This document shows, piece by piece, positions 1 through 51,775 of a DNA stretch of 64,000 bases (position 1 is the stretch's first letter; each line of letters starts with the position of its first letter). The translations under genes and the position numbers were made by a program. Source of the stretch: Meghimatium bilineatum (Eukaryota > Mollusca > Gastropoda > Stylommatophora > Philomycidae); assembly GCA_034231615.1 (NCBI GenBank), contig CM067302.1:13682990-13746989 (forward strand), read 5' to 3'. The notes under the pieces were generated by a model that saw nothing but the letters and a program-made list of their open reading frames with translations, ran no database searches and had not been told where the DNA came from.

Positions 1-2355
1 CTCCTACTATTAAAACAACTACTATTACTACTGCTACTGCTACTACTACAACTAATACTCCTACTATTAAAACAACTACTATTACTACTGCTACTGCTAA
101 TACTACAACTAATACTCCTACTATTAAAACAACTACTATTACTACTGCTACTGCTAATACTACAACTAATACTCCTACTATTAAAACAACTACTATTACT
201 ACTGCTACTGCTAATACTACAACTAATACTCCTACTATTAAAACAACTACTATTACTACTGCTACTGCTACTACTACAACTAATACTCCTACTATTAAAA
301 CAACTACTATTACTACTGCTACTGCTAATACTACAACTAATACTCCTACTATTAAAACAACTACTACTACAACTGCTACTGCTAATACTACAACTAATAC
401 TCCTACTATTAAAACAACTACTACTACAACTGCTACTGCTAATACTACAACTAATACTCCTACTATTAAAACAACTACTATTACTGCTACTGCTAATACT
501 ACAACTAATACTCCTACTATTAAAACAACTACTATTACTACTGCTACTGCTACTACTACAACTAATACTCCTACTATTAAAACAACTACTATTACTACTG
601 CTACTGCTAATACTACAACTAATACTCCTACTATTAAAACAACTACTATTACTACTGCTACTGCTAATACTACAACTAATACTCCTACTATTAAAACAAC
701 TACTATTACTACTGCTACTGCTAATACTACAACTAATACTCCTACTATTAAAACAACTACTATTACTACTGCTACTGCTACTACTACAACTAATACTCCT
801 ACTATTAAAACAACTACTATTACTACTGCTACTGCTACTACTACAACTAATACTCCTACTATTAAAACAACTACTATTACTACTGCTACTGCTAATACTA
901 CAACTAATACTCCTACTATTAAAACAACTACTATTACTACTGCTACTGCTACTACTACAACTAATACTCCTACTATTAAAACAACTACTATTACTACTGC
1001 TACTGCTAATACTACAACTAATACTCCTACTATTAAAACAACTACTATTACTACTGCTACTGCTACTACTACAACTAATACTCCTACTATTAAAACAACT
1101 ACTATTACTACTGCTACTGCTAATACTACAACTAATACTCCTACTATTAAAACAACTACTATTACTACTGCTACTGCTAATACTACAACTAATACTCCTA
1201 CTATTAAAACAACTACTATTACTACTGCTACTACTACAACTAATACTCCTACTATTAAAACAACTACTATTACTACTGCTACTGCTAATACTACAACTAA
1301 TACTCCTACTATTAAAACAACTACTATTACTACTGCTACTGCTAATACTACAACTAATACTCCTACTATTAAAACAACTACTATTACTACTGCTACTGCT
1401 AATACTACAACTAATACTCCTACTATTAAAACAACTACTATTACTACTGCTACTGCTAATACTACAACTAATACTCCTACTATTAAAACAACTACTATTA
1501 CTACTGCTACTGCTAATACTACAACTAATACTCCTACTATTAAAACAACTACTATTACTACTGCTACTGCTAATACTACAACTAATACTCCTACTATTAA
1601 AACAACTACTACTACAACTGCTACTGCTAATACTACAACTAATACTCCTACTATTAAAACAACTACTATTACTACTGCTACTGCTAATACTACAACTAAT
1701 ACTCCTACTATTAAAACAACTACTATTACTACTGCTACTGCTAATACTACAACTAATACTCCTACTATTAAAACAACTACTATTACTACTGCTACTGCTA
1801 ATACTACAACTAATACTCCTACTATTAAAACAACTACTATTACTACTGCTACTGCTAATACTACAACTAATACTCCTACTATTAAAACAACTACTATTAC
1901 TACTGCTACTGCTAATACTACAACTAATACTCCTACTATTAAAACAACTACTATTACTACTGCTACTGCTAATACTACAACTAATACTCCTACTATTAAA
2001 ACAACTACTATTACTACTGCTACTGCTAATACTACAACTAATACTCCTACTATTAAAACAACTACTATTACTACTGCTACTGCTAATACTACAACTAATA
2101 CTCCTACTATTAAAACAACTACTATTACTACTGCTACTGCTAATACTACAACTAATACTCCTACTATTAAAACAACTACTATTACTACTGCTACTGCTAA
2201 TACTACAACTAATACTCCTACTATTAAAACAACTACTATTACTACTGCTACTGCTAATACTACAACTAATACTCCTACTATTAAAACAACTACTATTACT
2301 ACTGCTACTGCTAATACTACAACTAATACTCCTACTATTAAAACAACTACTATTA
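1..2355. repeat. 57-bp CTA-rich minisatellite, about 41 copies
   Basis: Unit of 57 bp built from CTA/ACT triplets around CTATTAAAACAACTACT. Variants alternate GCTAATACTAC and GCTACTACTAC, plus a shorter form lacking one ATT block. The plus strand has almost no G outside CTG triplets, an extreme strand asymmetry. The array continues beyond the left edge. Confidence 0.97.
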
Positions 2356-33800: not shown

Positions 33801-36800
33801 ATTTATGTAGATCTTTATTTTAAGTTTGTTTAAAGTAGATTTCTTTTATATTTAAGAATATTGTTATTTAATAATGTGGCTGATTTAAGTAAATTTATGT
33901 TTGTTTAATGAGTTTAGTTTCAATATATTTTTTATTATAAGTTGGTTTAGTTTTTGCAAATTTCTCCTATAATTTGGTTTAAAGTATATTTCTTGTATAA
34001 TGTGATTTAGTTTAAGTATAATTTTTTAATAATTTGGTTTAGTTAAGTATGTTTCTTGTATAATTTGATTTCATGTAAGTACATTTATCATATAATTTGG
34101 TTTAATTTAAATATAACCGCTGTGTAGTTTGGTTTACTTTAAGCATATTTATTGTATAATTTGGTTTTAAAGTATATTCCTTGTTTACTTTTAATTTTAG
34201 TTTATATTTCTATTGAATTTCTTCTTTGTTTTCCAATTTGATTTCTTTGATACTTTAGTTGAAAAGGTAAGTCAGCTGTAAGAGTGTAACATGACAAAAG
34301 GAGAGTGTTGCCATATCTAATTTGAAAACAAAAATAATTCCCAAGAGCTCTTTACTATCAGTTGAAAGAGGCGATTATGAAGGGTTATGCATGGCATTCT
34401 TTTGGCTTTTAATGCATACTGAATGGACATCTTAGTACTTGGGTTTTCCCAGATCCTCTGGTGTAGTGGTAAAGCCGTTCGCTTCATGTAAGTGAAAGAA
34501 TGCACTTATCTTGAAATCATCATATCATCGAATGGGAAATGTATGAATTCTTCTTCTTCTGCGTTCGTTCTCAAACTCCTGCAGATCAGCAGGATGTAGT
34601 CCGGAGAATGGAATGATTTGTGTCATGGTTTACAGTATTGATGCGATATCTGCGCCTTTCGTACCATATCTAATTTGAAAACAAAAATAATTCTTAAGAG
34701 CTCTTTACTATCAGAATCACATTCCATAAAGATTTTACATAAATTATACATATTGGCAGCCATTGTAGCCCACAGATAGATTCCAAACTAGATGTCTCAC
34801 GATATTTACAATTTTTTTTGTCTATCTTTCTCCTATATTTCATTGACTATACTGACAACAGAAGTAGAATGCTATTGCTAACTATGATTGGCTGATTCTG
34901 GTCACATTACATTAGCAATCATGTTGTTACACATCGAATGATTGCATTAGCAGTGTGCACCTAATGTCGCCAACATTCGTAGACAACTAAAGAAAACCAT
35001 TTTCGACAGTAGGTGACAATGGCATGCTAAAGGTTAATACTGAACCATTACAGGCTAAATAGTGACCCCTGTGGTCCCGGGTTCAATCCACGATTGGAAT
35101 ATCATTTTTTTCTTTCGGAGGTACAATTAAAATTCTTCCAGCCTAGTGGATAGTGAGCTTGCTTGCTATCATCTGGTTACAGCGTGCCGGGTTCGAAACC
35201 ACGTCCGGACATTTAAAAAAAAAAAAAATCCGGGTTGTGATTTCTCACTTGACACGACCACTCCTCCAGTCGACTCAGCTGTAAATGAGTACCTGACGCA
35301 TGAGTTAGGGAAGGTAAAAAACAGCAAGGAAGGGAACTGGCCACCCCACCTAATAGTTGCTGCGGCTTAGTACATGAAGAGTTATCTTCATCCCCGACGG
35401 CAGATGCCATGGGACCTACCTTTACCTTTACCTTTACATATCACGGCATCTACTATGGCAATATGGCTTTTATATCCACAGCTCATATAAAGCCTCCCAG
35501 CACTCCTTCACAGGAAAACATGCAGCAATGAAAGTTTTTTACTGGCTAACTTATAATATTGCATCATCACTGGCTAACTTGCAATATGGCAAAATCATCA
35601 CTGGCTAACTTATAATATTGCACCATAATCACTGGCTAACCCATAATATTGCATAACAATCACTGGCTAACGTATAATATTACATCATCACTGGTTAACT
35701 TATAATATTGCATCGCCACTGGCTTACTTATAATATTGCATCGCCATTGGCTTACTTATAATATTGCATCATCACTGGCTAAATTATAATATTGCATCAT
35801 CATCGGCTAACTTAAAATATATTGCACTATTTCTAGCTAAATTATAATATTGCATCATCACTGGCTAAATTATAATATTGCATCATCATTGGCTAATTTA
35901 TAATATTGCACAATCACTGGCTAAATTATAATATTGCACAATCACTGCCTAAATTATAATATTGCATCATCACTGGCTAATATTTTCACTATTGGCTAAG
36001 CTAAGCTGCAGCATCGTTAACATCATCATCCTCATCATCATCATCGCTGGCTAGCCTAAGCTTGAGCTAGATGTGACTAACCATACTTAACAAACTTACA
36101 GGAGCTTACAAAAAGACCCAGTCTTCCATCATCATTTCAGATGCTCAGACAAATGTGATGTACTACATCGATCAGTCAGACAAGCCATTGACATGTGTCA
36201 TCAACAAGCCGTAAGTTGCTCACACATTTCTTCACTCAGACAAGCCATTGACATGTGTCATCAACAAGCCGTAAGTTGCTCACACATTTCTTCACTCAGA
36301 CAGGCCATTGACATGTGTCATCAACAAGCTATTAGTTGCTCACACATTTCTTCACTCAGACAAGCCATTGACACGTGTCATCAACAAGCTGTAAGTTGCT
36401 CACACATTTCTTCACTCAGACAAGCCATTGACATGTGTCATCAACAAGCTGTAAGTTGCTCACACATTTCTTCACTCAGACAAGCCATTGACATGTGTCA
36501 TCAACAAGCCGTAAGTTGCTCACACATTTCTTCACTCAGACAAGCCATTGACACGTGTCATCAACAAGCCGTAAGTTGCTCACACATTTCTTCACTCAGA
36601 CAAGCCATTGACATGTGTCATCAACAAGCCGTAAGTTGCTCACACATTTCTTCACTCAGACAGGCCATTGACATGTGTCATCAACAAGCTATTAGTTGCT
36701 CACACATTTCTTCACTCAGATATTTTTTATCTAGCTTGATGTAGTTCTATACATTGAAATAGGAAATGCTGTACTGTTTATAATAGGTTTAACTAGCATG

Positions 36801-39800
36801 AGATCTGGTTTGATTATTGTGATTTAGTGTTCCAAATAAGTTACAGGGCTACATCTATTTTCTGCTTGAGCAGAACATCCAGCTGTCCTGGGATTGTGTA
36901 GTTTGAGCTAGTAGAAGTAGGCATAGTAAACACATTGCATAGTTTCCGATAATCAAAGGGAGAACAGTATTTGATAATCAAAGGGAGAACAATATTTGAT
37001 AATCAAAGGGAGAACAGTATTTGATAATCAAAGGGAGAACAATATTTGATAATCAAAGGGAGAACAGTATTTGATAATCAAAGGGAGAACAATATTTGAT
37101 AATCAAAGGGAGAACAGTATTTGATAATCAAAGGGAGAACAGTATTTGATAATCAAAGGGAGAACAATATTTGATAATCAAAGGGAGAACAATATTTGAT
37201 AATCAAAGGGAGAACAATATTTGAAAATCAAAGGGAGAACAATATTTGATAATTAAAGGGAGAACAATATTTGATAATCAAAGGGAGAACAATATTTGAT
37301 AATCAAAGGGAGAACAATATTTGATAATCAAAGGGAGAACAATATTTGATAATCAAAGGGAGAACAGTATTTGATAATCAAAGGGAGAACAGTATTTGAT
37401 AATCAAAGGGAGAACAGTATTTGATAATCAAAGGGAGAACAATATTTGATAATCAAAGGGAGAACAGTGTTTGATAATCAAAGGGAGAACAGTATTTGAT
37501 AATCAAAGGGAGAACAATATTTGATAATCAAAGGGAGAACAGTGTTTGATAATCAAAGGGAGAACAGTATTTGATAATCAAAGGGAGAACAGTATTTGAT
37601 AATCAAAGGGAGAACAATATTTGATAATCGAAGGGAGAACAATATTTGATAATCGAAGGGAGAACAATATTTGCAGATTACTTTATTTGATTCTGATGGT
37701 TTGTCTTTTCTTACATAATCTATAGACTGTGTCACATCCATTGCTGAGCTGCTTTTGTACGATATTATCTTTCAACCACTTCTTACATAATCTATAGACT
37801 GTGTCACATCCATTGCTGAGCTGCTTTTGTACGATATTATCTTTCAACCACTTCTTACATAATCTATAGACTGTGTCACATCCATTGCTGAGCTGCTTTT
37901 GTACGATATTATCTTTCAACCACTTCTTACATAATCTATAGACTGTGTCACATCCATTGCTGAGCTGCTTTTGTACGATATTATCTTTCAACCACTTCTT
38001 ACATAATCTATAGACTGTGTCACATCCATTGCTGAGCTGCTTTTGTACGATATTATCTTTCAACCACTTCTTACATAATCCATAGACTGTGTCACATCCA
38101 TTGCTGAGCTGCTTTTGTACGATATTATCTTTCAACCACTTCTTACATAATCTATAGACTGTGTCACATCCATTGCTGAGCTGCTTTTGTACGATATTAT
38201 CTTTCAACCACTTCTTACATAATCTATAGACTGTGTCACATCCATTGCTGAGCTGCTTTTGTACGATATTATCTTTCAACCACTTCTTACATAATCTATA
38301 GACTGTGTCACATCCATTGCTGAGCTGCTTTTGTACGATATTATCTTTCAACCACTTCTTACATAATCTATAGACTGTGTCACATCCATTGCTGAGCTGC
38401 TTTTGTACGATATTATCTTTCAACCACTTCTTACATAATCTATAGACTGTGTCACATCCATTGCTGAGCTGCTTTTGTACGATATTATCTTTCAACCACT
38501 TCTTACATAATCTATAGACTGTGTCACATCCATTGCTGAGCTGCTTTTGTACGATATTATCTTTCAACCACTTCTTACATAATCTATAGACTGTGTCACA
38601 TCCATTGCTGAGCTGCTTTTGTACGATATTATCTTTCAACCACTTCTTACATAATCTATAGACTGTGTCACATCCATTGCTGAGCTGCTTTTGTACGATA
38701 TTATCTTTCAACCACTTCTTACATAATCTATAGACTGTGTCACATCCATTGCTGAGCTGCTTTTGTACGATATTATCTTTCAACCACTTCTTACATAATC
38801 TATAGACTGTGTCACATCCATTGCTGAGCTGCTTTTGTACGATATTATCTTTCAACCACTTCTTACATAATCTATAGACTGTGTCACATCCATTGCTGAG
38901 CTGCTTTTGTACGATATTATCTTTCAACCACTTCTTACATAATCTATAGACTGTGTCACATCCATTGCTGAGCTGCTTTTGTACGATATTATCTTTCAAC
39001 CACTTCTCTGTTTTACTGCATTTAACAGTCTGAAACTGACATTGCTGTCTCGAGTATCTATCAAACTGTGACATTGCTGTCTCGAGTATCTATCAAACTG
39101 TGACATTGCTGTCTCGAGTATCTATCAAACTGTGACATTGCTGTCTCGAGTATCTATCAAACTGTGACATTGCTGTCTCGAGTATCTATCAAACTGTGAC
39201 ATTGCTGTCTCGAGTATCTATCAAACTGTGACATTGCTGTCTCGAGTATCTATCAAACTGTGACATTGCTGTCTCGAGTATCTATCAAACTGTGACATTG
39301 CTGTCTCGAGTATCTATCAAACTGTGACATTGCTGTCTCGAGTATCTATCAAACTGTGACATTGCTGTCTCGAGTATCTATCAAACTGTGGCATTGCTGT
39401 CTCGAGTATCTATCAAACTGTGACATTGCTGTCTCGAGTATCTATCAAACTGTGGCATTGCTGTCTCGAGTATCTATCAAACTGTGACATTGCTGTCTCG
39501 AGTATCTATCAAACTGTGACATTGCTGTCTCGAGTATCTATCAAACTGTGACATTGCTGTCTCGAGTATCTATCAAACTGTGACATTGCTGTCTCGAGTA
39601 TCTATCAAACTGTGACATTGCTGTCTCGAGTATCTATCAAACTGTGACATTGCTGTCTCGAGTATCTATCAAACTGTGACATTGCTGTCTCGAGTATCTA
39701 TCAAACTGTGACATTGCTGTCTCGAGTATCTATCAAACTGTGGCATTGCTGTCTCGAGTATCTATCAAACTGTGACATTGCTGTCTCGAGTATCTATCAA

Positions 39801-42800
39801 ACTGTGGCATTGCTGTCTCGAGTATCTATCAAACTGTGACATTGCTGTCTCGAGTATCTATCAAACTGTGACATTGCTGTCTCGAGTATCTATCAAACTG
39901 TGACATTGCTGTCTGAGTAGCTACCAAACTGTGACATTGCTGTCTCGAGTATCTATCAAACTGTGGCATTGCTGTCTCGAGTATCTATCAAACTGTGACA
40001 TTGCTGTCTCGAGTATCTATCAAACTGTGACATTGCTGTCTCGAGTATCTATCAAACTGTGACATTGCTGTCTCGAGTATCTATCAAACTGTGACATTGC
40101 TGTCTGAGTAGCTACCAAACTGTGACATTGCTGTCTGAGTAGCTATCAAACTGTGACATTGCTGTCTCGAGTATCTATCAAACTGTGACATTGCTGTCTC
40201 GAGTATCTATCAAACTGTGACATTGCTGTCTCGAGTATCTATCAAACTGTGACATTGCTGTCTCGAGTATCTATCAAACTGTGACATTGCTGTCTCGAGT
40301 ATCTATCAAACTGTGACATTGCTGTCTCGAGTATCTATCAAACTGTGACATTGCTGTCTCGAGTATCTATCAAACTGTGACATTGCTGTCTGAGTAGCTA
40401 CCAAACTGTGACATTGCTGTCTGAGTAGCTATCAAACTGTGACATTGCTGTCTCGAGTATCTATCAAACTGTGACATTGCTGTCTCGAGTATCTATCAAA
40501 CTGTGACATTGCTGTCTCGAGTATCTATCAAACTGTGACATTGCTGTCTCGAGTATCTATCAAACTGTGACATTGCTGTCTCGAGTATCTATCAAACTGT
40601 GACATTGCTGTCTCGAGTATCTATCAAACTGTGACATTGCTGTCTCGAGTATCTATCAAACTGTGACATTGCTGTCTCGAGTATCTATCAAACTGTGACA
40701 TTGCTGTCTCGAGTATCTATCAAACTGTGACATTGCTGTCTCGAGTATCTATCAAACTGTGACATTGCTGTCTCGAGTATCTATCAAACTGTGACATTGC
40801 TGTCTCGAGTATCTATCAAACTGTGACATTGCTGTCTCGAGTATCTATCAAACTGTGACATTGCTGTCTCGAGTATCTATCAAACTGTGGCATTGCTGTC
40901 TCGAGTATCTATCAAACTGTGACATTGCTGTCTCGAGTATCTATCAAACTGTGACATTGCTGTCTCGAGTATCTATCAAACTGTGACATTGCTGTCTGAG
41001 TAGCTACCAAACTGTGACATTGCTGTCTGAGTAGCTATCAAACTGTGACATTGCTGTCTCGAGTATCTATCAAACTGTGACATTGCTGTCTCGAGTATCT
41101 ATCAAACTGTGACATTGCTGTCTCGAGTATCTATCAAACTGTGACATTGCTGTCTCGAGTATCTATCAAACTGTGACATTGCTGTCTCGAGTATCTATCA
41201 AACTGTGACATTGCTGTCTCGAGTATCTATCAAACTGTGACATTGCTGTCTCGAGTATCTATCAAACTGTGACATTGCTGTCTCGAGTATCTATCAAACT
41301 GTGACATTGCTGTCTCGAGTATCTATCAAACTGTGACATTGCTGTCTCGAGTATCTATCAAACTGTGACATTGCTGTCTCGAGTATCTATCAAACTGTGA
41401 CATTGCTGTCTCGAGTATCTATCAAACTGTGACATTGCTGTCTCGAGTATCTATCAAACTGTGGCATTGCTGTCTCGAGTATCTATCAAACTGTGACATT
41501 GCTGTCTCGAGTATCTATCAAACTGTGACATTGCTGTCTCGAGTATCTATCAAACTGTGACATTGCTGTCTCGAGTATCTATCAAACTGTGACATTGCTG
41601 TCTCGAGTATCTATCAAACTGTGACATTGCTGTCTCGAGTATCTATCAAACTGTGACATTGCTGTCTGAGTAGCTATCAAACTGTGGCATTGCTGTCTGA
41701 GTAGCTACCAAACTGACCAGAAAACCCATGCTTAATCTTATATTGTACAGGATGGATGAGAAATGACATAACCAAAAGGAGAACAAAGAATAGCGACACT
41801 GTTACCTCTCATGCATGTCAAAGAGACGACTAAGAAGGTGTATGAGTGAATTTGACTGTCCCATCCCATGTAAGGTGAACGTGACCCAGACGCCATGCTG
41901 AAGCCGGATGTGTCAGGCTCAAAGGTGCAGATATTGCAACTAAGCTGTAAACCATGACACAGCATGTTCTGTTGTCTGGGCTATGTCCTGATAATCTACT
42001 TCGAGAGTTTGAGAACGAAAGTGGAAGAAGATGAGACTGTGATTCGATATCTGTTATTTAGCTTTATCAATACTAGGTTTGGAGAAATCAGACTGATTCA
42101 ATATCTGTTATTTCACTTTATCAATACTAGGTTTGGAGAGATCCGATTGATTTGATATTAGTTATTTCATTTCAACAATACTAGATGTTAGCAGAGATCA
42201 AAGTATGTGATTTGATATCTGTTATTTCACCATCAATACTAGGTTAGTAGAGATCAGACTCTGTGATTTAAAATCTGTTATTTTATTTCAACAATGTTAG
42301 GTTAGGAGAGATCAGACTCCGTGATTTCAAATCTGCAATTGAGGATTCAAACCTATACCATTACTTCTTCAAAGCTTTGGATCCTGAGTATGGCACAGTC
42401 AAGGAGGAGGTAGGTTTTCTGCGTAGTTTTGACCAGAGGCTGATGTACTGACCAATGTGGGTGATACACTGACCTATATACTGATGCACTGACCACTGTT
42501 ACTGCTGCATAGACCAGTGACCAATATTCTGCTCACTGTTGGTCTGCTGTACTGATCAGTTGCTGACACACTGACCGCTGTTGGTCTGCTGTACTGGTCA
42601 AGTGCTGATATACTGACCACTATATGCTGTGATGCATTTTCAGTAAGGGAGGGGTGAGTGGTTTGCCATTTTAAAAAAGGGTAGACGGTCATTCACCCAT
42701 TTTCTTGTTTAATTCTCTATTTTTTTCTTCAGATATTTGATGACCTATTATGTAACAATCATTGACTGTGAGTACTATACTAAGAGAAGAAAGTGTACTT

Positions 42801-43889
42801 TTGGTTCATGTTTGGTTAACAGGACTTTATATTGAAGCATTGACTCTTTGCATTTCTCATAACATCTGCCCACTTCAGAACATCTAAATATGCCGCCCCT
42901 CCAATGCTTCCTCCGAAGCACGAGCAGCTGTATTTCTGTTTCCAGGGTGCACCACGAGGAGATACTTTCGGGATCTTGGCTATCTGCTTATTGGGTCCGC
43001 CGAGATCAATTAGGTACTCCTTGCATCCCACACAGTAGATGAACCCAAACCATATACCAATAAGAGCATATGAAAAAAGAATATCCGGACATAAAACCAA
43101 AGGTAGACAAAGAAAATGGTGGATAGAAAACAAGAAGATAACCTTGAACAAATATGGACTCAACGCAACTACGCCAACACATCTGGCCTTGGAACAGCAA
43201 CTAAGGCAACACATCTGGCCTTGGAACAGCAACTAAGGCTCCAACCCCCAACATTTAATGACAAATTTGAATACTATCAACAATCATTCACCTGGAAAAA
43301 GACAATAGGCAATAGGATCTGTAAACATCCTAGGCAGCCCAAGGACTTGATTCATTGATTGATTGATTGATTGATTGATCTCTGTCAGATTTGCTGTTGA
43401 GTACATGCTCTAATTCTTAACACATTTAGCAAGTTGAAAGGAACTGTAGAATTGGTTGTGGAGTGCAAACATATAAATTGTTTATAAGTTTAACAAAAAA
43501 AGTACAGGGGAATTCCGTTGTAATAACTTGGTCTCCAGACTGACAAAATATGTATGTAATAACTTGGTCTCCAGACTGACAAAATATGTATGTAATAACA
43601 GAAATTTGTTATATACAGTACAAACAATATAGAATAAATATAATTGGGGATTTTGAAAATTGTTGTTATATAGGAAAATTTGTTATAAAAGGATGTGCTA
43701 TAGAGGGACTGTATATTTTTTTTTTCTTCAACGTTCATTCTCAAATTCCTACTTGATCCCTTGTAGCAGGACAATGATCCTACCTGATTTTTTTTTAAAT
43801 TTCAGCTTTCCTGTGATGATGACATCTTGCCAGGTTGGGAAGGGAAGATAGTTGCTTGGTTGGAAATTGAAGGTGGACCGACATGCTGA
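3735..43889 (+). CDS. DIXDC1: Dixin (DIXDC1/Ccd1) homologue, 3' part, 14 exons
   Basis: Spliced gene, about 510 codons visible. Dixin is a cytoplasmic Wnt-pathway regulator that polymerises with Dishevelled and Axin through its DIX domain; vertebrate forms have a calponin-homology domain, a coiled coil and a C-terminal DIX domain. Here exons 1-7 give a charged heptad-rich coiled coil, exons 8-11 a Ser/Thr/Pro-rich linker, and exons 12-14 a DIX domain with the hallmarks VMYYIDQSDKP, LGEIRLRDFK, YFFKALDPEYGTVKEE and DDDILPGWEGKIVAW before a stop. The ALDPEYGTVKEE and PGWEGKIVAW signatures fit Dixin better than Dishevelled or Axin. All junctions are GT-AG; introns are phase 0 except exon 11/12 (phase 1) and 12/13 (phase 2), and phases agree throughout. 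The N-terminal exons are not in the window. The span includes introns; exons are listed separately. Confidence 0.9.
4135..4152. repeat. Poly(G) run, 18 bases
   Basis: Uninterrupted G tract in the intron after exon 1. Its length is uncertain in any assembly. Confidence 0.9.
4170..4345 (-). mobile_element. SINE-like repeat S1b, reverse copy
   Basis: Reverse-oriented copy of the S1b subfamily (S1 with an extra roughly 45-bp block near TCTCTTGTTGCAGG). It shares TTCATTCTCAAACTCC and the following block with copies at 57675 and 61375. A forward S1 fragment follows at 4380-4520. Confidence 0.7.
4380..4520 (+). mobile_element. SINE-like repeat S1, forward fragment
   Basis: Matches the middle and 3' part of the full-length S1 copy at 28658 (GGAGTTGGCTGTCTCATCCC, CATGCTGAAGTC, GTAAACCATGATATAATGCA). 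The (GAA)n end is missing. Confidence 0.7.
4525..4885 (-). mobile_element. LINE-A remnant (C-terminal region)
   Basis: On the minus strand, broken frames read ENKCLPKLMNIK, then KRRWKYLGHVLRLDVNRINQ, then MENQNLCPMCRLRHE. The plus-strand copy at 29690 has the matching ENKCLRKLMNIKW and the copies at 46690 and 48215 match the later parts. A 3' fragment of a non-LTR retrotransposon with stops and frameshifts. Confidence 0.75.
5110..5830. repeat. Degenerate TGCCTCACTTGYCTTTCTG repeat
   Basis: CT-rich low-complexity repeat with irregular units of roughly 16-20 bp, in two blocks (to 5470 and from 5610). The open frames across it are repeat artefacts. Confidence 0.85.
5868..5948 (+). CDS. DIXDC1: Dixin exon 2
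   Basis: 81 nt, 27 codons, phase 0 at both ends. Acceptor gatctttcag, donor ata|gtaagt. It encodes an acidic polar stretch (LLTGDSSADDKNHPGSELEG) that ends NPKETI. No domain is recognisable; it is probably a loop between coiled-coil segments. A GTGA-rich minisatellite begins only about 30 bases after the donor. Confidence 0.82.
5975..6205. repeat. GTGAGTGGGTAG-type minisatellite
   Basis: Irregular GTGA/GTGG/GTAG units without pyrimidine runs, starting about 30 bases downstream of Dixin exon 2. Confidence 0.9.
6360..6470 (+). repeat. Interspersed repeat fragment (S6)
   Basis: Shares TTGCAAGAAAATCATGGCAA and AGTCCCCTC with 23955-24055. The CTCGTTCACTCCACCTTACA block is locally duplicated. Family unknown. 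Confidence 0.45.
6488..6712 (+). mobile_element. SINE family S2, copy 1
   Basis: About 225 bp. It contains a tRNA-like Pol III B box (GGTTCAATTCC) preceded by GGCGATTTGGTGCCGTAGAA, and ends with AATTGTCCTCTGGCTTCC. About 90 percent identical to the copy at 6871. The short open frame across it is not a gene. Confidence 0.75.
6871..7056 (+). mobile_element. SINE family S2, copy 2
   Basis: Same head and B box as copy 1, but it stops at CTCAAGAAT, where a 22-bp array begins. An inverted S2 copy lies on the other side of that array. Confidence 0.75.
7057..7264. repeat. 22-bp array between inverted S2 SINEs, about 9 copies
   Basis: Units of GTTTGCTGTATAAAATGCTC plus AG with substitutions. It exactly fills the gap between the 3' ends of two S2 copies in opposite orientation. 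Confidence 0.9.
7265..7415 (-). mobile_element. SINE family S2, inverted copy
   Basis: The reverse complement carries GGCGATTTGGTGCCGTC and GGGTTCAATTCTCGTT. More diverged than copies 1 and 2. Confidence 0.75.
7425..8435. mobile_element. Element with long imperfect terminal inverted repeats
   Basis: The ends (7425-7515 and 8345-8435) are inverted copies of each other, sharing CCTATGCCAGCATGCAAGGA and flanking CAAATGAAA. The interior holds unrecognised sequence and a LINE-D fragment at 8027-8245. It looks like a foldback-type DNA element. No transposase was recognised; interior open frames are short. Confidence 0.5.
8027..8245 (+). mobile_element. LINE-D remnant, ORF2 C-terminus
   Basis: Reads SLVYKAYTKRGEAERRAKGR, PRIRWIDNIKETLHEHQ, LSEAARKARTR. 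The GRPR.RWIDNI pattern is typical of the C-terminal end of RTE-like non-LTR retrotransposon proteins. Second copy at 32870. Confidence 0.8.
8515..8619 (+). CDS. DIXDC1: Dixin exon 3 (coiled coil)
   Basis: 105 nt, 35 codons, phase 0 at both ends. Acceptor ctgccggtag, donor agg|gtttgt (weaker than the other donors). It encodes VILKGRLLHSEEVAVSLRAD followed by LTKVKKDCLELQGTR, with hydrophobic residues spaced as heptads, typical of the Dixin central coiled coil. Confidence 0.87.
8750..9180 (+). mobile_element. Degenerate LINE 3' region
   Basis: Broken frames read RCLRRITNTHWSELKSNDKI, later NRHVLRI and HILQNCPTYKE, resembling the C-terminal tail and cysteine motif of non-LTR elements. GGGGCAATAACTAT is locally duplicated near 9075. 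Confidence 0.45.
9183..10620 (+). mobile_element. Non-LTR retrotransposon RT remnant, interrupted
   Basis: The frame reads WYTNDTVLAETEQELQRLIE (a decayed YADD reverse-transcriptase motif), then GLAIN at 9310. It resumes after a 904-bp insertion with IISKNEEKPM, then VEHYQYLGHIITND and IYGSETWMT. The order palm, YLG, YGSETW is right for RTE-like RTs. Multiple stops and frameshifts. Confidence 0.7.
9313..10216 (-). mobile_element. piggyBac-like non-autonomous element, TTAA target site
   Basis: 904 bp flanked by TTAA at 9309-9312 and 10217-10220. Termini are CCTTTAACAAGCT and its inverted partner AGCTTGCTAAAGG. Removing it rejoins a LINE reading GLAIN|IQ. A minus-strand stretch near 9850-10030 reads DTESFGSMDMDNLKDGKVEN, acidic like piggyBac transposase N-termini, but no catalytic domain is present. 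The CCYTTT ends plus TTAA duplication are the piggyBac signature. Confidence 0.75.
10705..11125 (-). mobile_element. LINE-C remnant, ORF2 C-terminus
   Basis: The minus strand reads QIKWFGHVMRMHHDKLPV, then GRPQKRWIENVRDILNKHGH and STAEATHQDLERKLKL. Same family as 43020 (+) and 44625 (-). It ends just before Dixin exon 4. Confidence 0.75.
11179..11283 (+). CDS. DIXDC1: Dixin exon 4 (coiled coil)
   Basis: 105 nt, 35 codons, phase 0. Acceptor catctccag, donor ata|gtgagt. It encodes AGLQQRLKEQEGTLSDLK followed by SEVMKLEFEKEKLASEI, a strongly predicted coiled coil. The first 18 residues resemble the whole of exons 5 and 6 (pattern ending SDLK/SDIK/SDLR), suggesting exon duplication. A degenerate ACTGACTGACA array starts right after the donor. 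Confidence 0.92.
11290..11505. repeat. Degenerate ACTGACTGACARCACA repeat
   Basis: Irregular units of ACTGACTGACA and AACAAAACTTGCTGACGGCA, beginning at the donor of Dixin exon 4. Similar units recur around 11760-11890. Confidence 0.85.
11512..11750 (-). mobile_element. SINE-like repeat S1, near full-length reverse copy
   Basis: Reverse orientation: GTGTTCGTTCTCAAAGTTTT, then the GAATGGAATGCATTGTATC block, through CTTCTTAGTCATCTC to CACTATTCTTTGCT. It lies between Dixin exons 4 and 5. Confidence 0.8.
11943..11996 (+). CDS. DIXDC1: Dixin exon 5 (18-residue coiled-coil module)
   Basis: 54 nt, 18 codons, phase 0 at both ends: DSLKRQLGSNEQVLSDIK. Acceptor attacctacag, donor aag|gtgggt. Same length and phase as exon 6 and similar to it and to the first half of exon 4. 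The 28-bp array starts about 50 bases downstream. Confidence 0.9.
12045..13217. repeat. 28-bp array, about 41 copies
   Basis: Units of CAAAACAAGACATACTATTA plus TCAACACT, with ACA/CCC variants and shorter units. The repeat has no stop in two frames, giving spurious open frames of over 440 codons. It starts 50 bases after exon 5. Confidence 0.97.
13395..13576 (+). mobile_element. LINE-F 3' end
   Basis: Reads ERLIAEGRIDGNRAS and ends ITFWKEYIT then stop, matching the MFWKEYIT end of the copy at 28550-29356. A TTGATTGATAGCTTGATAA tail follows; an S1 SINE is inserted there. Confidence 0.7.
13596..13884 (+). mobile_element. SINE-like repeat S1, full-length with TSD
   Basis: 289 bp from CGCCCATGTGTTGCCTGGGC to a (GAA)n tail. 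Flanked by GCTTGATAA at 13587-13595 and 13885-13893. S1 has no obvious tRNA A/B boxes at its head. Confidence 0.88.
13985..14045. repeat. Telomere-like TTAGGG/TAGGGTTA tract
   Basis: Irregular TTAGGGTTAAGGCTAGGGTT-type sequence with five imperfect TTAGGG motifs. A similar scrap lies at 18473-18500. Confidence 0.6.
14110..14505 (-). mobile_element. LINE-E 3' end, copy 1
   Basis: Minus-strand relative of the better preserved copy at 14512: the same GGTGCACTCTGCTAGACTGT and CATGTCTTTTAATATGTCC blocks. A (GATGAT)n tail sits at its 3' end. Confidence 0.7.
14512..14845 (-). mobile_element. LINE-E 3' end, copy 2
   Basis: The minus strand reads TLLEGKVKGRRAIGRQRYKR, then GYSLAECTTKARDRGCWRSV and ANLRCGDST, then a (GAT)n tail. 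This is a typical C-terminus of a non-LTR ORF2. It is in direct tandem with copy 1. Confidence 0.78.
14846..15972. repeat. 50-bp array with higher-order structure, LINE-derived
   Basis: About 22 units of GACTAATGAGTCCAGTCCAG plus ACAATGAAAGATCTGTTGTT and GTGTACCCTT; a 46-bp form lacks ACAA. Variant order repeats as a six-unit, 490-bp block (15055-15350 and 15545-15840). The first unit, TAGATGGCTAATGAGCCC, is antisense to GLISHL, the C-terminal zinc-finger motif of LINE-H at 24235. Confidence 0.95.
16068..16318 (+). mobile_element. SINE-like repeat S1, diverged forward copy
   Basis: Matches S1 from GGGAGCAAAGAATAG through GTGTCAGGCCGAAAATGCAG and GCTAATTTGCTG to AATGAAGAAG. Many substitutions and small indels. 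Confidence 0.7.
16412..17053 (-). mobile_element. LINE-B, 5'-truncated, RNase H end, with TSD
   Basis: A 642-bp insertion flanked by the 13-bp duplication GGGCCAGTGCCAT (16399-16411 and 17054-17066). The minus-strand frame is open for about 200 residues: a ribonuclease H domain (FLTDARSVLQAL, then TMQWIPPHCGIPGNEKADQL with the conserved D, H and N-x-x-A-D) and a cysteine motif CTCGQAAQSAKHILQEC. It ends in a (GAA)n tail like that of SINE S1. The intact frame and clean TSD indicate a fairly recent insertion. It ends 97 bases before Dixin exon 6. Confidence 0.88.
17151..17204 (+). CDS. DIXDC1: Dixin exon 6 (18-residue coiled-coil module)
   Basis: 54 nt, 18 codons, phase 0: ISCVKQVEDKDRVVSDLR. 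Acceptor ggattttcag, donor agg|gtaagt. Aligned without gaps to exon 5 it shares S2, Q6, V13, S15 and D16 plus conservative changes at most other positions. A TSD-flanked LINE insertion ends only 85 bases before the acceptor. Confidence 0.9.
17575..17790 (-). mobile_element. LINE-G remnant
   Basis: The minus strand reads RRQIIARIRSRQSRFLEHVM then REKLEHLVPLE across a stop. The plus copies at 33390 and 58785 have the same FLGHVLR...LEHL core. Sequence from 17210 to 17575 holds nothing I recognise. Confidence 0.55.
17815..18030 (-). mobile_element. tRNA-derived SINE S5
   Basis: On the minus strand it starts GTGGAGCGCGTGGCCGTACG (A-box-like), followed by the B box CGGGTTCAATCC and TCTTTCGGAGGTGCAATAAA, and ends near AGGAAAACACGCAGTAATGA. 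Related copies at 35045 (interrupted) and 53395 (partial). Not a functional tRNA gene. Confidence 0.75.
18150..18370 (-). mobile_element. Rearranged LINE fragment
   Basis: The minus strand joins an RT-like motif (MSPTLFNMYCNTLSK) directly to a C-terminal motif (GGGSSRRGTQRKPWIDSLNE WT). In an intact element these are hundreds of residues apart, so this is an internally deleted copy. Confidence 0.55.
18385..18620. mobile_element. Foldback (long inverted repeat) element
   Basis: The left arm near 18390-18460 (GAATTATTTCCCTTGCCTGT and TTGTAAATTTCATGTTCAT) is the reverse complement of the right arm near 18540-18615 (ATGAACACAAAATTTACAAA and CAAGGGAAATAATT). The loop carries TTAGGGTT and AACCCTAA-like motifs. 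Probably a MITE; superfamily unknown. Confidence 0.65.
18732..18872 (+). CDS. DIXDC1: Dixin exon 7 (end of coiled coil)
   Basis: 141 nt, 47 codons, phase 0. Acceptor gtgtctttcag, donor gag|gtcagt. It starts RELLIRDHIINQLQDQVNQI, the last clear coiled-coil stretch, then becomes polar (KKGTTEPKLATDGVFTLAKD). A foldback element lies in the preceding intron and a mariner in the following one. Confidence 0.92.
19043..20341 (+). mobile_element. mariner transposon, full-length but dead
   Basis: 1299 bp between TA dinucleotides (19041-19042 and 20342-20343). Inverted termini are CGAGGGATAGTCAAAAATTA and the complement of ACTTTTTGACCATCCCTTG. The broken plus-strand transposase reads MAVKEVWLKQHVIEFLSA, an HTH stretch CTVQRWVHRCDEAEVGQCS, the first catalytic region VTGDETSVHFLKPES, and the third, HPPYSPNLAPSDFDLF (canonical SPDLAPSD). 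At least several stops and frameshifts kill it. It sits in the Dixin intron between exons 7 and 8. Confidence 0.9.
20397..20498 (+). CDS. DIXDC1: Dixin exon 8 (linker), NAGNAG acceptor
   Basis: 102 nt, 34 codons, phase 0. It reads QMSEDASCDDQRLFLLTQCL then SRLSGQDRPTAGLK. The acceptor is ctttgccctagcag, so splicing can occur after TAG (20396, keeps Q) or after CAG (20399, drops Q); both keep the frame. Donor aaa|gtaagc. Confidence 0.9.
20640..20765 (+). mobile_element. LINE-E 3' end, forward fragment
   Basis: Reads YSLAECTTKISDKMLEVSES, matching the AECTTKARDRG region of LINE-E at 14512, followed by a TGATGATGA-type tail. Confidence 0.6.
20860..21085 (+). mobile_element. SINE-like repeat S1, forward partial copy
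   Basis: GTCATGCATGTTGTAAGAGG through TGCAGATATCACAGC and GTCTGCGGGAGTTTGAGAAT to ACACAGAAG. The head is missing. Confidence 0.75.
21120..21415 (+). mobile_element. LINE-I 3' end
   Basis: With one frameshift it reads KKAWTDNIKEWTGQDIKTLI then RIAEDRIRWRTLCA and stop, a non-LTR ORF2 C-terminus, followed by a TTGATTGATTGATG tail. Confidence 0.7.
21435..22530. repeat. Degenerate TATGTAGCCATGTTGT repeat
   Basis: Roughly 16-17-bp degenerate units; a tighter 32-33-bp subarray (CACCATACTATCATGTAGCC plus ATGTTGTGG) lies at 21605-21750, and a longer block (GAATCCATGTTGTCTAGCTA) recurs at about 21770, 21870 and 21985. It fills the intron up to exon 9. Confidence 0.9.
22581..22766 (+). CDS. DIXDC1: Dixin exon 9 (linker)
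   Basis: 186 nt, 62 codons, phase 0. Acceptor tatttatctcag, donor agg|gtgagt. It has a helical segment (NPIIDKLEETVIKLLDKI) then a Ser-rich tail (GSSVGSVSSSRVLSSNR). Just upstream the intron is a degenerate TATGTAGCCATGTTG repeat. Confidence 0.92.
22828..23293 (+). mobile_element. SINE-like repeat S1, forward copy with internal insert
   Basis: The S1 head (GTTGCCAGGGCCTGAAAGGG) and 3' part (GTCATAAGAGGTGACTAAGA to GAGAATGAGCGCGGAAGAAG) are separated by about 175 bp of other sequence (22896-23070), flanked by related CATAAGAGG copies. Confidence 0.7.
23295..24230. other. Intron sequence without recognised gene
   Basis: No exon or protein match recognised. It contains an S6-like fragment at 23955-24055 and a CTGTGGAAAACCTCATCA / CTGTGGGAAACCTCATCA short duplication near 24075-24115. 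Confidence 0.5.
24235..24710 (-). mobile_element. LINE-H 3' region with C-terminal zinc finger
   Basis: An open minus-strand frame reads IRWQDKILDTTVLDRVGIPS, then IRWAGHLVRMPDHCLPKILL, YGELEKGTRSQGGQKKRYKD and TWEELAQNRSTWRSKI. A second frame downstream gives CPNCPRTFTARIGLISHLR, a C2H2-type finger. This ending is common among animal non-LTR retrotransposon proteins. The RT domain is missing (5' truncation). Confidence 0.85.
25230..26965. repeat. 64-bp array with higher-order structure, about 27 copies
   Basis: Units of GCTACTAGCCTCAGACATAC plus GCTATTTCTTCCAGTGGTAG and TTTCTGTAACAACATGCTAA. A rare GGGG insertion variant recurs at 25471 and 26113, 642 bp (ten units) apart, and neighbouring variants match, showing a ten-unit block duplication. 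The last seven units carry their own ATAAGC/ACAAGC variants. Confidence 0.97.
27129..27287 (+). CDS. DIXDC1: Dixin exon 10 (basic Ser/Pro linker)
   Basis: 159 nt, 53 codons, phase 0. Acceptor tttaattgatttaag, donor ttg|gtaggt. The product is basic and Ser/Pro-rich (ERNVIPGKRTANLAQSWRTP, then a stretch with PKVTPRVRALSSSVS), consistent with the disordered linker before the DIX domain. Confidence 0.9.
27490..27685. repeat. 19-bp array, about 10 copies
   Basis: Units of GATAGTCAATGTGGATGGA with occasional GATGATAGT variants, shortly after Dixin exon 10. Confidence 0.95.
27860..28110. repeat. Degenerate AACTAAACAAATTCCAGTGG repeat
   Basis: About ten diverged units of 22-27 bp, purine-rich. Confidence 0.85.
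28200..28485 (+). mobile_element. Penelope-like element, 3' fragment
   Basis: Reads CYTLENCFILQYGTLMPFGL then NINHSLF, clearly related to the YALENRFICEFGTLKPFGFN end of the larger Penelope copy at 50480. Only the C-terminal end of the GIY-YIG region is left. Confidence 0.7.
28550..29356 (+). mobile_element. LINE-F remnant interrupted by SINE S1
   Basis: Reads LERLAIAITKLKEM before an S1 insertion. After it, with frameshifts, come AYRTILRISWTEKIRNSEVL, then KLKCFRLIKRHNDMERRILE, NGRPRKRWTDEIKECMK and MFWKEYIT with a stop. This is the thumb to C-terminus of an RTE-like ORF2. The tail is a GATGATGATGG sequence. Confidence 0.82.
28658..28931 (+). mobile_element. SINE-like repeat S1, full-length with TSD
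   Basis: 274 bp from CGCCCGTGTGTTGCTGAGG to (GAA)n, flanked by AGATCATATTTT at 28646-28657 and 28932-28943. It interrupts LINE-F. With 13596 it defines both S1 ends. Confidence 0.9.
29690..30170 (+). mobile_element. LINE-A remnant
   Basis: Reads LFNSCIFPVLTYGSESWTST, then NRFENKCLRKLMNIKWMDFL and TNSDLRNKTR, then broken frames with MEIPGS and TTTHGESKPLPYGATC. The YGSESW motif and following helix are the RT thumb of RTE-like LINEs. The preceding 29380-29690 is probably more LINE debris. Confidence 0.78.
30200..30870 (-). mobile_element. LINE-B-like rearranged fragment (RT and RNase H pieces)
   Basis: The minus strand has an RNase H start (ADGSATTAVKNGGVWVYIKH) at about 30810, followed, not preceded, by an RT motif (GLSQGSSLSPVMYNVYA) at about 30240. 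RT should come first, so the copy is scrambled. A 57-bp array lies inside it. Confidence 0.6.
30256..30545. repeat. 57-bp array, 5 copies, inside LINE coding sequence
   Basis: Identical units of TACAGTGTAGTTGGTTCAGA plus TGACCAAATGTCACAAGGCG and GTACCACCTTCCATTCA. On the minus strand each unit encodes YEWKVVPPCDIWSSEPTTL in the LINE frame that continues into the GLSQGSSLSP motif. 57 is a multiple of three, so the frame is kept. Confidence 0.95.
30893..31345 (-). mobile_element. LINE-B RNase H C-terminal fragment
   Basis: Reads ILQALDSDKLPDLKKAM, then RRVVLQWIPSQCGIPGNEEA, DRLAKDGATQEQIDQEITYQ and a NGQAAQTTEHILQY motif, collinear with LINE-B at 16412. It has a stop after KKAM and a frameshift near the cysteine motif. 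Its 5' side is cut by the 21-bp array. Confidence 0.8.
31350..32407. repeat. 21-bp array, about 50 copies
   Basis: Units of GGGGTACATTTCTTCCTTGT plus A, with a C>G variant (TTCCGTG) scattered in runs. The period is a multiple of three, so it is open in several frames (YPYKEEM on the minus strand); these frames are not genes. It begins where the LINE-B RNase H homology stops. Confidence 0.97.
32457..32473. repeat. Poly(C) run, 17 bases
   Basis: Uninterrupted C tract about 90 bases before exon 11. Confidence 0.9.
32564..32690 (+). CDS. DIXDC1: Dixin exon 11 (linker before DIX)
   Basis: 127 nt, 42 codons plus one base (phase 1 end). Acceptor tgtgtgtttgtag, donor aacag|gtaagt. It encodes SSNQTPARVQQTSPRGSAGV then a basic segment with SISKLARSQIPRPT. 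The split codon completes as Gly in exon 12. Confidence 0.92.
32870..33130 (+). mobile_element. LINE-D remnant, ORF2 C-terminus
   Basis: Reads SLVYKAYTKRGEAERRARGR, VHWIDNIKETLHEHQ and LSEAARKARTR, about 95 percent identical to 8027-8245, then STGDNCTSIQ. It ends in a CACACACACCACC stretch. Confidence 0.8.
33390..33625 (+). mobile_element. LINE-G remnant
   Basis: Reads GRQSRFLGHVLRKTQLEHLI then TTGTIKERIDRGRQRQKLL, with stops, and a 3' RHSAWHLI. Collinear with 58785-59290. Confidence 0.7.
33630..34540. other. AT-rich intron sequence with degenerate TTTGGTTTAGTTTAAGTA motif
   Basis: From about 33760 to 34230 a diffuse motif (ATAATTTGGTTTAATTTAAGTATATTT) recurs every 40-60 bases. No gene seen. 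AATTTGAAAACAAAAATAATTC occurs at about 34318 and again at 34671, a local duplication around an S1 fragment. Confidence 0.5.
34545..34665 (-). mobile_element. SINE-like repeat S1, reverse 3' fragment
   Basis: TTCTTCTTCTGCGTTCGTTC through GCGATATCTGCGCCTTTC. Bounded by the duplicated AAGAGCTCTTTACTATCA sequence seen at 34345 and 34696. Confidence 0.75.
35045..35540 (+). mobile_element. SINE S5 interrupted by SINE S4
   Basis: S5 head (GGTCCCGGGTTCAATCCACG, TCTTTCGGAGGTACAATTAA) at 35067-35126 and S5 body (ATATCCACAGCTCATATAAA to AGGAAAACATGCAGCAATGA) at 35441-35540, in the order seen at 17815-18030. S4 fills the gap. Confidence 0.7.
35127..35440 (+). mobile_element. tRNA-derived SINE S4, full-length
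   Basis: tRNA-related head with A box CCTAGTGGATAGTGAGC and B box GGGTTCGAAACC, a central conserved-looking body (CGACTCAGCTGTAAATGAGT, GAAGGGAACTGGCCACCCC) and a (CCTTTA)n tail. A 3' fragment in reverse lies at 52735. Confidence 0.82.
35540..35990. repeat. 28-bp array, about 16 diverged copies
   Basis: Units of TATAATATTGCATCATCACT plus GGCTAACT with many substitutions, ending about 110 bases before exon 12. Confidence 0.92.
36102..36210 (+). CDS. DIXDC1: Dixin exon 12 (first half of DIX domain)
   Basis: 109 nt. Acceptor caaacttacag; phase 1 start, phase 2 end. It encodes AYKKTQSSIIISDAQTNVMY then YIDQSDKPLTCVINKP, the first beta strands of a DIX domain. The donor cc|gtaagt lies inside the first unit of a nine-copy 60-bp array, so seven GTAAGT donors follow each other. 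Only the first gives an open frame: reading past it meets TAA (ccg taa) at once. The array therefore duplicated the last 33 bases of the exon, the donor and 27 intron bases. Confidence 0.93.
36178..36720. repeat. 60-bp array of the exon 12/intron junction, 9 copies
   Basis: Each unit holds the last 33 bases of Dixin exon 12, the donor GTAAGT and 27 intron bases ending TTTCTTCACTCAGA. Seven units keep GTAAGT; units 3 and 9 (36301, 36661) have ATTAGT and AGG instead of AAG. The unit end also makes a plausible acceptor (TTTCTTCACTCAG). Unit 1 is the real exon end. TCAGA is shared at the breakpoints. Confidence 0.97.
36955..37672. repeat. 25-bp array, about 29 copies
   Basis: Units of TTTGATAATCAAAGGGAGAA plus CARTA, with A/G alternation at one site. 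In the Dixin intron between exons 12 and 13. Confidence 0.97.
37712..39008. repeat. 72-bp array, 18 nearly identical copies
   Basis: Units of CTTACATAATCTATAGACTG plus TGTCACATCCATTGCTGAGC, TGCTTTTGTACGATATTATC and TTTCAACCACTT. Only one substitution (a CCATAG at 38080) is evident. Because 72 is a multiple of three it leaves a 463-codon open frame on the minus strand with a 24-residue period, which I do not consider a gene. Confidence 0.97.
39035..41715. repeat. 32-bp array, about 84 copies
   Basis: Units of GTGACATTGCTGTCTCGAGT plus ATCTATCAAACT. Each carries the palindrome CTCGAG. Variants lack CTCG (CTGAGTAGC) in pairs at 39910, 40105-40140, 40390-40430, 41000-41035 and at the end. Confidence 0.97.
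41745..42033 (+). mobile_element. SINE-like repeat S1, forward copy
   Basis: AAAAGGAGAACAAAGAATAG through GTCAAAGAGACGACTAAGA and GTAAACCATGACACAGCATG to CGAAAGTGGAAGAAG. It separates the 32-bp array from the exon 13 junction repeats. Confidence 0.75.
42034..42335. repeat. Diverged 54-58-bp array of the intron/exon 13 junction
   Basis: About four and a half decayed units upstream of the real junction, each with a polypyrimidine stretch, CAATACTAG and then GTTTGGAGARATCAGA-like sequence and GATTT.AAATCTGTTATTT. The last unit is the functional acceptor (CAACAATGTTAG) plus the first 35 bases of exon 13. Decoy acceptors end at 42076, 42130, 42184 and 42242. Confidence 0.88.
42301..42409 (+). CDS. 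DIXDC1: Dixin exon 13 (core of DIX domain)
   Basis: 109 nt: one base completes Pro, then 36 codons. It starts LGEIRLRDFKSAIEDSNLYH and continues YFFKALDPEYGTVKEE, covering the helix and the VKEE strand used for head-to-tail DIX polymerisation. The acceptor is caacaatgttag and the donor gag|gtaggt. The acceptor and roughly the first 35 exon bases also occur as diverged tandem copies upstream (42040-42300). Confidence 0.94.
42425..42625. repeat. Degenerate CTGATACACTGACCACTGTT repeat
   Basis: Short irregular units just after exon 13. Confidence 0.8.
43020..43378 (+). mobile_element. LINE-C 3' end
   Basis: Reads MNPNHIPIRAYEKRISGHKT, KGRQRKWWIENKKITLNKYG and TPTHLALEQQL, then a (ATTG)n tail. 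GCAACTAAGGCAACACATCTGG-like sequence is tandemly duplicated. Same family as 44625 (-). Confidence 0.78.
43505..43712 (-). mobile_element. CAGTGGAATCCC MITE, diverged, with 36-bp internal duplication
   Basis: Reverse-oriented member of the MITE family at 53209 (TGTTATATACAGTACA, TAATTGGGGATTTTGAAAAT, TTATAAAAGGATGTGCTATA). The block TAATAACTTGGTCTCCAGAC plus TGACAAAATATGTATG is duplicated in tandem. Confidence 0.7.
43722..43805 (-). mobile_element. S1b fragment abutting the last Dixin acceptor
   Basis: TTCATTCTCAAATTCCTACT, TGATCCCTTGTAGCAGGA and CAATGATCCTACCTGATT match S1b copies at 4200 and 61375. The S1b consensus continues GATTTCCAACAGGATG, where this copy has GATTTTTTTTTAAATTTCAG and the exon. 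Confidence 0.6.
43806..43889 (+). CDS. DIXDC1: Dixin last coding exon (end of DIX domain, stop)
   Basis: 84 nt including TGA at 43887-43889. It encodes LSCDDDILPGWEGKIVAWLE and then IEGGPTC. The D-D-D, P-G-W-E-G-K-I-V pattern is the final DIX strand in its Dixin version. The acceptor ttttaaatttcag lies directly beside, perhaps inside, a fragment of interspersed repeat S1b. Confidence 0.94.
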   Translation, partial: LSCDDDILPGWEGKIVAWLEIEGGPTC

Positions 43890-50479: not shown

Positions 50480-51775
50480 TATAAATACTTCTACTACCTC
50501 TGTCAACTTTTTTCACATTATTGTCACTATTCATCCCCCCTTACCTCAGCACATCTGTTTACTACAAACCTACTGATGCACATCCCCCTTACCTCAGCTC
50601 ATCTGTTTACTACAAACCTACTGATGGACACAGTTTTCTGCTCTAAAGCTCTTCTCATCCTCCTGCTTGTTGCAACTCTGACATTCTCCCAGATTTTTGC
50701 CATCGTCACTTATGTAGTGGTGGTGACGACTTTCTTGATAAATTCTCTAGGATTGTTGATTTCTTTCGTAGATGTTCATTCCCTGACAGTGTCCTTTCAT
50801 CGGCTAGGCTTCGTGTCCGTAAGTTATCTCGACTTGCTACCTTGACTAATATTCAGGGTACTTCATCCTCCTCTGATAGAGTTAAACTTGTCCTTACTTT
50901 TAATCCCCATAACTCTACTGTCCGTCGAATCTTATTCAAGCATTATTCCCTTCTCCAGTCTGATTCTGAAACCCGTGCCGCTTTCCAGGACTTTCCTTTG
51001 GTTGCCTATAGACGTGATAAAAATCTTAATATCTTGGTCAACATCCACCTCAGGTCTTATGTTCTGATCATTTTGGCACTGTTCATTGCAAACTCAGTCT
51101 TGCTACACATGTTCCTATGTAGTTCAGATTTGCTCTGTTTCATTTCCTACGGTCACTATCGATGAGGCCTTCACATTGTAAATCCTGTAATGTCATTTAT
51201 GTTATCATATGTAAATGTTGTGACAAGAAGTATGTAGGTGAAATGGGCTTACGATTGAGTGACTGTTTCTGTAGGTATCTTCATGCCATAAAACAAAGAG
51301 AACCTATCCCTGTCGCCATTCATTTCAATGGTGATGGTCGTCATGATGACCTTGGAGGTCTGGTCACTGCCCTCAGATCCAGCACCATGGATGATAGATC
51401 TCAGTATGCTCTTGAAAATCGATTTATTTGTGAGTTTGGTACCCTCAAGCCTTTTGGATTTAATTCCAAACATTCGTTTCAATTTTATTTTTGTGATCCT
51501 TGTTGTATTGCTGTCCATGTTGTTTTGGGTAACAATTTTTCCTTTCTGTTCTCATATCCCATCCTGTTTTTCAACATACCCGTTTCTATGACTACATGTG
51601 TTTACATGTATGTCATTGTCACGTGGAACTTTGTATTGTTTACATTGCGTTCTAGTGCCTCTGTTATGGTAATATTGTTTTTACTGTCTTTATAGTTTTT
51701 TCATTGTTTGTTTTGTATATTCTTGAGAAAGACCGAAATGTTGAAAATGTCTTGTGCATTGTCATTTGTATTTTT
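50480..51775 (+). mobile_element. Penelope-like retroelement, RT end and GIY-YIG endonuclease, decayed
   Basis: Broken frames read VYYKPTDGHSFLL, then FCHRHLCSGGDDFLDKFSRI, RLRVRKLSRLATLTNIQG, VKLVLTFNPHNSTVRRILFK, PLVAYRRDKNLNILV (Penelope RT thumb). The GIY-YIG domain follows: NVIYVIICKCCDKKYVGEMG, then IPVAIHFNGDGRHDDLGGLV and YALENRFICEFGTLKPFGFN. The usual YVGET is YVGEM here. A CCCCCTTACCTCAGCACATC-type 53-bp block is duplicated at the left. Stops and frameshifts are present; the 5' half of the RT is missing. Confidence 0.88.

Follow-up and report, generated by a model that had tools for sequence, protein, structure and literature searches.

The 64,000-nucleotide stretch of Meghimatium bilineatum DNA analysed here (CM067302.1, positions 13,682,990 to 13,746,989 of the forward strand; the window) carries a gene for Dixin, a member of the Wnt pathway, in which the intron that splits the DIX domain, intron 12, has a tandem array across each of its two splice junctions. 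The copies of the junctions all lie inside the intron, yet the outer junctions yield a normal Dixin protein without a gap. The two arrays look like two of a sort that is common in this genome, and we think it probable that frequent local tandem duplication sometimes catches exon ends, with array-making being genome-wide and not aimed at splice sites.

The exon numbers used here, 12 and 13, were carried over from an earlier reading of the sequence alone (the sequence-only reading) and not from a whole-gene map. Exon 12 (36102..36210, + strand), assigned to the first part of the DIX domain by in-frame translation and by the Dixin/DIX matches of the joined protein, has AG ahead of 36102 and GTAAGT past 36210, and its terminus reads ...AACAAGCC, in phase 2. 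Exon 13 (42301..42409, + strand) begins G|TTAGGAGAG following ...AATGTTAG, and the last coding exon (43806..43889, + strand), placed by in-frame join, closes with LSCDDDILPGWEGKIVAWLEIEGGPTC and the stop. Joined in frame, the three exons gave a full DIX domain. The joined protein, used as a query one leucine short, matched Pfam DIX at 3.1e-24, and its best match was solved Dixin (PDB 5y3b, 8.6e-25), with Dishevelled at 3.1e-14 and Axin at 0.0043; the gene is Dixin. The joined protein aligns to the PDB Dixin with no gap where exons 12 and 13 meet (INKP|LGEIRL versus IPKRLGEVTL), and this establishes AAGCC|GTAAGT as the true donor and AATGTTAG|GTTAGG as the true acceptor. Protein alignment thus bore out two proposals of the sequence-only reading, that these are real Dixin exon ends (exactly, 36210 and 42301) and that the exon-proximal unit at each end is the true junction.

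At the donor end, nine 60-bp units (36178..36717, + strand), delimited by Tandem Repeats Finder (TRF) and by comparison of the units, each consist of 33 nt of the exon 12 end followed by 27 nt of the intron opening with its GTAAGT donor. The unit reads AGACAAGCC...AAGCC|GTAAGT...CACTC from 36178, and TRF reported the array at 36172-36720 with a period of 60, 9.1 copies and 96% match. The nine donor units described previously are therefore real, although the 27 intron bases that had been counted beside GTAAGT already include it. Units 1, 2, 6 and 8 are identical across 60 bp, while units 3 and 9 share one sequence, from which the donor GT is gone; GT is kept in seven of the nine donors, the real donor counted, and all eight extra copies (8/8) straddle the junction. 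A whole-genome search that took exon 12 plus a portion of unit 1 as its query, and that scores best candidates only, listed nine matches, all of them in the 5' array; a dispersed repeat was rejected, the matches listed being at this locus only. The motif TCAGA is common to the exon (36176..36180, + strand, in the context GATCAGTCAGACAAG) and to the rightmost bases of the array (36716-36720, in the context CACTCAGATATT). A role for it at the breakpoint is possible and would fit a microhomology-joined tandem duplication, a five-base match being weak evidence.

At the acceptor end, TRF delimited a decayed array of about 5.5 copies with a period of ~54-58 (42029..42335, + strand; TRF period 54, 5.5 copies, 79% match), in which the exon-proximal unit contains the true acceptor and the start of exon 13. 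Four intron copies straddle the acceptor, so that the decayed acceptor copies reported earlier upstream of exon 13 were found again. The first 40 nt of exon 13 agree with the nearest intron copy at 35/40 positions and with the second nearest at 31/40. Aligned to the intron, exon 13 reached a score of 60; for 200 109-mers drawn at random from the window the median score was 24, the 95% point 34 and the highest score 58. Chance similarity was rejected because exon 13 scored above the best random 109-mer. Translated in frame, the nearest intron copy is still DIX-like (LVEIRLCDLKSVI versus LGEIRLRDFKSAI), which points to exon 13 as the probable source of the copies.

Among the donor and acceptor combinations tested by translation, Dixin was obtained only from donor 1 together with the last acceptor. 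From all eight downstream donor positions a TAA follows right after the first GCC|G, and the four acceptor copies tested, as well as the 31-nt unit taken as an exon, also led to stops; every decoy tested ended the exon 12 frame after 36-61 aa, within DIX. GT is absent from two of the eight downstream donor positions and AG from one of the four acceptor positions tested. That decoy donors and acceptors adjoin the real sites, as had been stated, was confirmed.

Tandem arrays, as delimited by TRF, make up ~90% of intron 12 (36211..42300, + strand; arrays at 36172-36720, 36948-37673, 37708-39007, 39037-41715 and 42029-42335) and 34% of the window. In 10-kb samples the share of arrays was 21% on the contig of the window, C5 (7 loci), versus 8.9% on other contigs (10 loci; Mann-Whitney p=0.055), and the double array in Dixin looks like chance on a repeat-rich contig. 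C5, at 25.7 Mb, is the smallest among the contigs with a size shown, and not one of the kinesin or myosin places listed lies on it.

The double case in Dixin is rare under a model of random seeding at the array density of the window, and other exons of the genome were therefore sampled. The sample comprised 35 conserved exons (4 DIX, 25 kinesin, 1 myosin and 5 Ras), found by domain match with their flanks unseen. Four of the five DIX places were taken, the fifth being Dixin itself; the kinesin places were 20 of 123, near the top of the list, and then five more, and to these were added one of 67 myosin places and, out of 150 Ras places, all five that lie on C5. For kinesin, myosin and Ras the choice was made by coordinates ahead of sequence, and on C5 for the contig. 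Exon ends were set by an approximate scoring of splice sites built on donor frequencies. Not all of them are certain, and among the 70 a few may be no splice junction (locus L062 seems to open with a start codon). Orientation was assumed for L011 and L013, neither of which has an array over the match.

Arrays straddle 4 of the 70 sampled exon ends (5.7%, 95% interval 1.6-14%), namely those of L040, L058, L064 and L068. In the kinesin locus L064, a donor array (L064:1-172; C21:5035896-5036200) has a 47-bp unit made of 45 exon nt and GT, with five exact pattern matches over six 47-bp steps, the repeated exon end being HIPYRDSKLTRLLQ; this exon-end pattern was found at 10 places, five of them in the array. 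The unit spans from exonic TAAG to the donor GTAAG, TAAG being common to both, which places the breakpoint inside the donor. The myosin donor array (L068:267-408; C1:3050367-3050542) repeats the exon end five times at spacings of 35, 35, 43 and 43 bp, and accounts for five of the 13 places of its exon-end pattern; the two unit lengths, 35 and 43 bp, look as if two duplications began at one junction. A Rab-like gene has a donor array (L058:377-653; C5:18811590-18811917) with a 114-bp unit and three matches of 100, 96 and 81%, the first unit containing ~52 nt of exon. Between its copies a 63-nt GT...CAG stretch resembles a mini-intron, and a spliced, in-frame 17-aa repeat would be speculation. 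The fourth case, an acceptor array of kinesin (L040), has a 40-bp unit that overlaps the exon by 2 nt in TRF and by ~10 nt by eye. Beyond these four, in a further Rab-like gene on C5 (L059, coding strand 1-266, minus strand) the opening bases of the exon recur upstream with 38/41 matching, in a ~37-bp array of the exon start in the upstream intron with no obvious acceptor copy, and at L060 an array starts at the donor. If ends are hit independently, 0.3% of introns would have both ends hit, or 0.5% counting L059.

The sequence-only reading had raised the targeting of both junctions by one mechanism, and this was not supported: array edges show no excess at junctions, donors are not clearly enriched, and the unit match differs between the two ends (96% versus 79%). 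The nearest array edges of the 35 sampled exons showed no excess at the junction, with 4 straddling and 3, 3 and 3 per successive 20-nt step into the intron; of the edges within 60 nt, 4 lay on the exon side versus 9 on the intron side (p=0.27). Donor-like sites were not enriched in the units of 145 arrays of the DNA analysed, where 19 scored at least 6 versus 31 in reversed and 28.4 in shuffled units, and 2 scored at least 10 versus 2 and 2.0, the shuffles preserving base content only. The derivation of array units from splice sites in general was rejected on this lack of enrichment. Genome-wide, triple tandem AGGTAAGT was not commoner than the reversed motif (3588 versus 3851 matches), in counts that cover gaps of 20-50 only and in which long arrays weigh heavily; single octamers numbered 57460 and reversed ones 75933. 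The growth of both arrays into the intron carries little information, because the protein would be lost if a copy took the place of the exon-proximal site, and this polarity is what selection would leave.

We envisage that this genome often makes local tandem duplications, which would then expand into minisatellite arrays, and that a duplicated segment which happened to cover an exon end would leave its copies on the intron side, since normal mRNA is still obtained from the exon-proximal site whereas alteration of the exon side would disrupt the protein. Intron 12 of Dixin would have undergone two such captures, the more diverged array arising at the acceptor and, at the donor, one that has diverged less and may have been joined via the shared TCAGA. 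The arrays may later have grown and been homogenised by slippage or unequal exchange, as the identity of units 3 and 9 suggests. The difference in unit match, 96% versus 79%, argues that the two arrays arose separately, and their origins are probably independent, although later homogenisation could contribute to that difference or mask age. A single event at both junctions was rejected on the same difference, which is not proof. An assembly artefact is unlikely, given the unit variants and the five similar loci (L040, L058, L059, L064 and L068). The arrays are probably close to neutral, though decoy use may carry a slight cost, and they would have been kept because splicing would still go through the exon-proximal sites.

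Several results weigh against capture by undirected duplication. Seeded at random, the 47 arrays of the window would straddle a given junction, with at least 10 nt on each side, with a probability of 0.017 (1.7%), and the two junctions of any particular intron with a probability of 0.0003 (0.03%). The sampled rate of straddling is ~3x that of this window-density model, which leaves room for a mild junction or exon-flank bias. The sample is also small, as the interval on 4/70 indicates, and 5 of its 35 exons were chosen on array-rich C5; excluding them, 3/60 ends are straddled. Per octamer, 6.2% of donor motifs lie in triples versus 5.1% of reversed ones, at most a slight excess. The sampled rate and the octamer excess would suit a seeding of arrays aimed at splice junctions, be it by breaks linked to transcription or with AG/GTAAG as microhomology, in favour of which may also be cited the breakpoint within the donor of L064 and the CAG with which the intronic portion of the unit closes in Dixin, L058 and L068. 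However, array edges without a junction excess, array units that are not rich in donors, and triple donors that do not outnumber the reversed motif make directed seeding unlikely. It is doubtful, though less so, that junctions are recurrent array seeds in the wider sense that arrays of their own junction are present at several percent of exon ends across unrelated genes, with some introns so marked at both ends; if this were true, splicing must routinely pick the exon-proximal one among many near-identical sites.

A function for the decoys could also be envisaged, in which the real sites face competition from the six decoy donors that are intact and from several copies of the acceptor, so that copy number tunes the output of Dixin, or in which each donor unit is a 31-nt poison exon. 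The tested alternative combinations do stop inside DIX, and in units 2-9 an acceptor-like TTTCTTCACTCAG stands ahead of the exon-derived part, with GTAAGT after it in six. However, arrays of this sort are also present in genes unrelated to Dixin (kinesin, myosin and Rab-like) and there is no sign of Dixin-specific selection, while GT has been lost in 2/9 donors and AG is lacking at the aligned place in one of the four acceptor copies tested; we regard functional decoys of either form as very unlikely. Hardly to be expected at all is a young intron that arose or lengthened through tandem duplication of exonic sequence (gain of the Rogers type), of which the arrays would be the remnant. Introns made of exon-derived tandem copies are described in two published papers (PMC4974935, PMC3629103), and in this genome two other DIX exons, one with an internal TAG, cover profile positions 1-55 unbroken while the match of Dixin exon 13 opens at profile position 18. 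Other arrays, however, make up most of intron 12, and divergence is unlike at its two ends. Capture of exon ends by frequent local duplication thus remains the reading that we prefer.

Elsewhere in the window, reading frame and splice motifs suggest further upstream Dixin exons near 8519, 11179 and 20400. A tandem array at 11297-11501 starts 11-15 nt past the donor of the probable exon at ~11179-11286. Open frames at 50647-51692 are reminiscent of a mobile element, and their CKCCDKKYVGEMG stretch may represent the GIY-YIG of a Penelope-like element.

If junction arrays are as frequent as the sample suggests, perhaps 1 in 15-20 exon ends of this genome (4 or 5 of the 70 sampled) has one, and such a genome would be a natural library both on the choice of the spliceosome among adjacent near-identical sites and on the frequency with which intron boundaries are shifted or newly made by tandem duplication. 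It would also be a caution for gene prediction, in which the wrong copy may be chosen. Among the papers listed by a limited set of searches on junction arrays, there was no case at both ends of one intron and no genome with such a frequency. In potato RdRp, an intron was gained by tandem duplication of a piece that crosses the 3' end of an intron and the next exon (PMC4974935); that duplication made a new intron, whereas in Dixin the array lies within the intron and the outer sites would be those in use. The tandem dual-specific splice sites of UBC likewise involve tandem units that each have splice sites (PMC10809524), but the UBC units are coding and are spliced in variable number, while the Dixin decoys yield stops. 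De Grassi and Ciccarelli (2009) described internal tandem repeats at exon-intron boundaries of human duplicated genes, with 27 intron modifications (PMC2812944). Like those of Dixin, these repeats are minisatellite expansions across boundaries; they vary between paralogues and often alter the transcript, whereas those of Dixin are known from genomic sequence alone. The closest known case is the 31-bp variable number tandem repeat (VNTR) of human CBS at exon 13/intron 13, c.1444_1467+7(16_21) (PMC2630376, PMC1395315), which shows that such junction arrays occur in humans. Its notation corresponds to 24 nt of the exon end and 7 nt of intron including the donor, in 16-21 tandem copies (PMC2630376), which is the same donor architecture as that of the 5' array of Dixin. 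The CBS repeat affects one end only and is polymorphic in humans, while Dixin has a 60-bp unit, is affected at the acceptor end too and is known from one assembly. In Dixin, as in a junction-spanning minisatellite of the CBS type, the unit holds the exon end and the splice site of a real exon. Each of the two Dixin arrays thus looks to belong to an already known kind, and what surprises is their apparent commonness in this genome.

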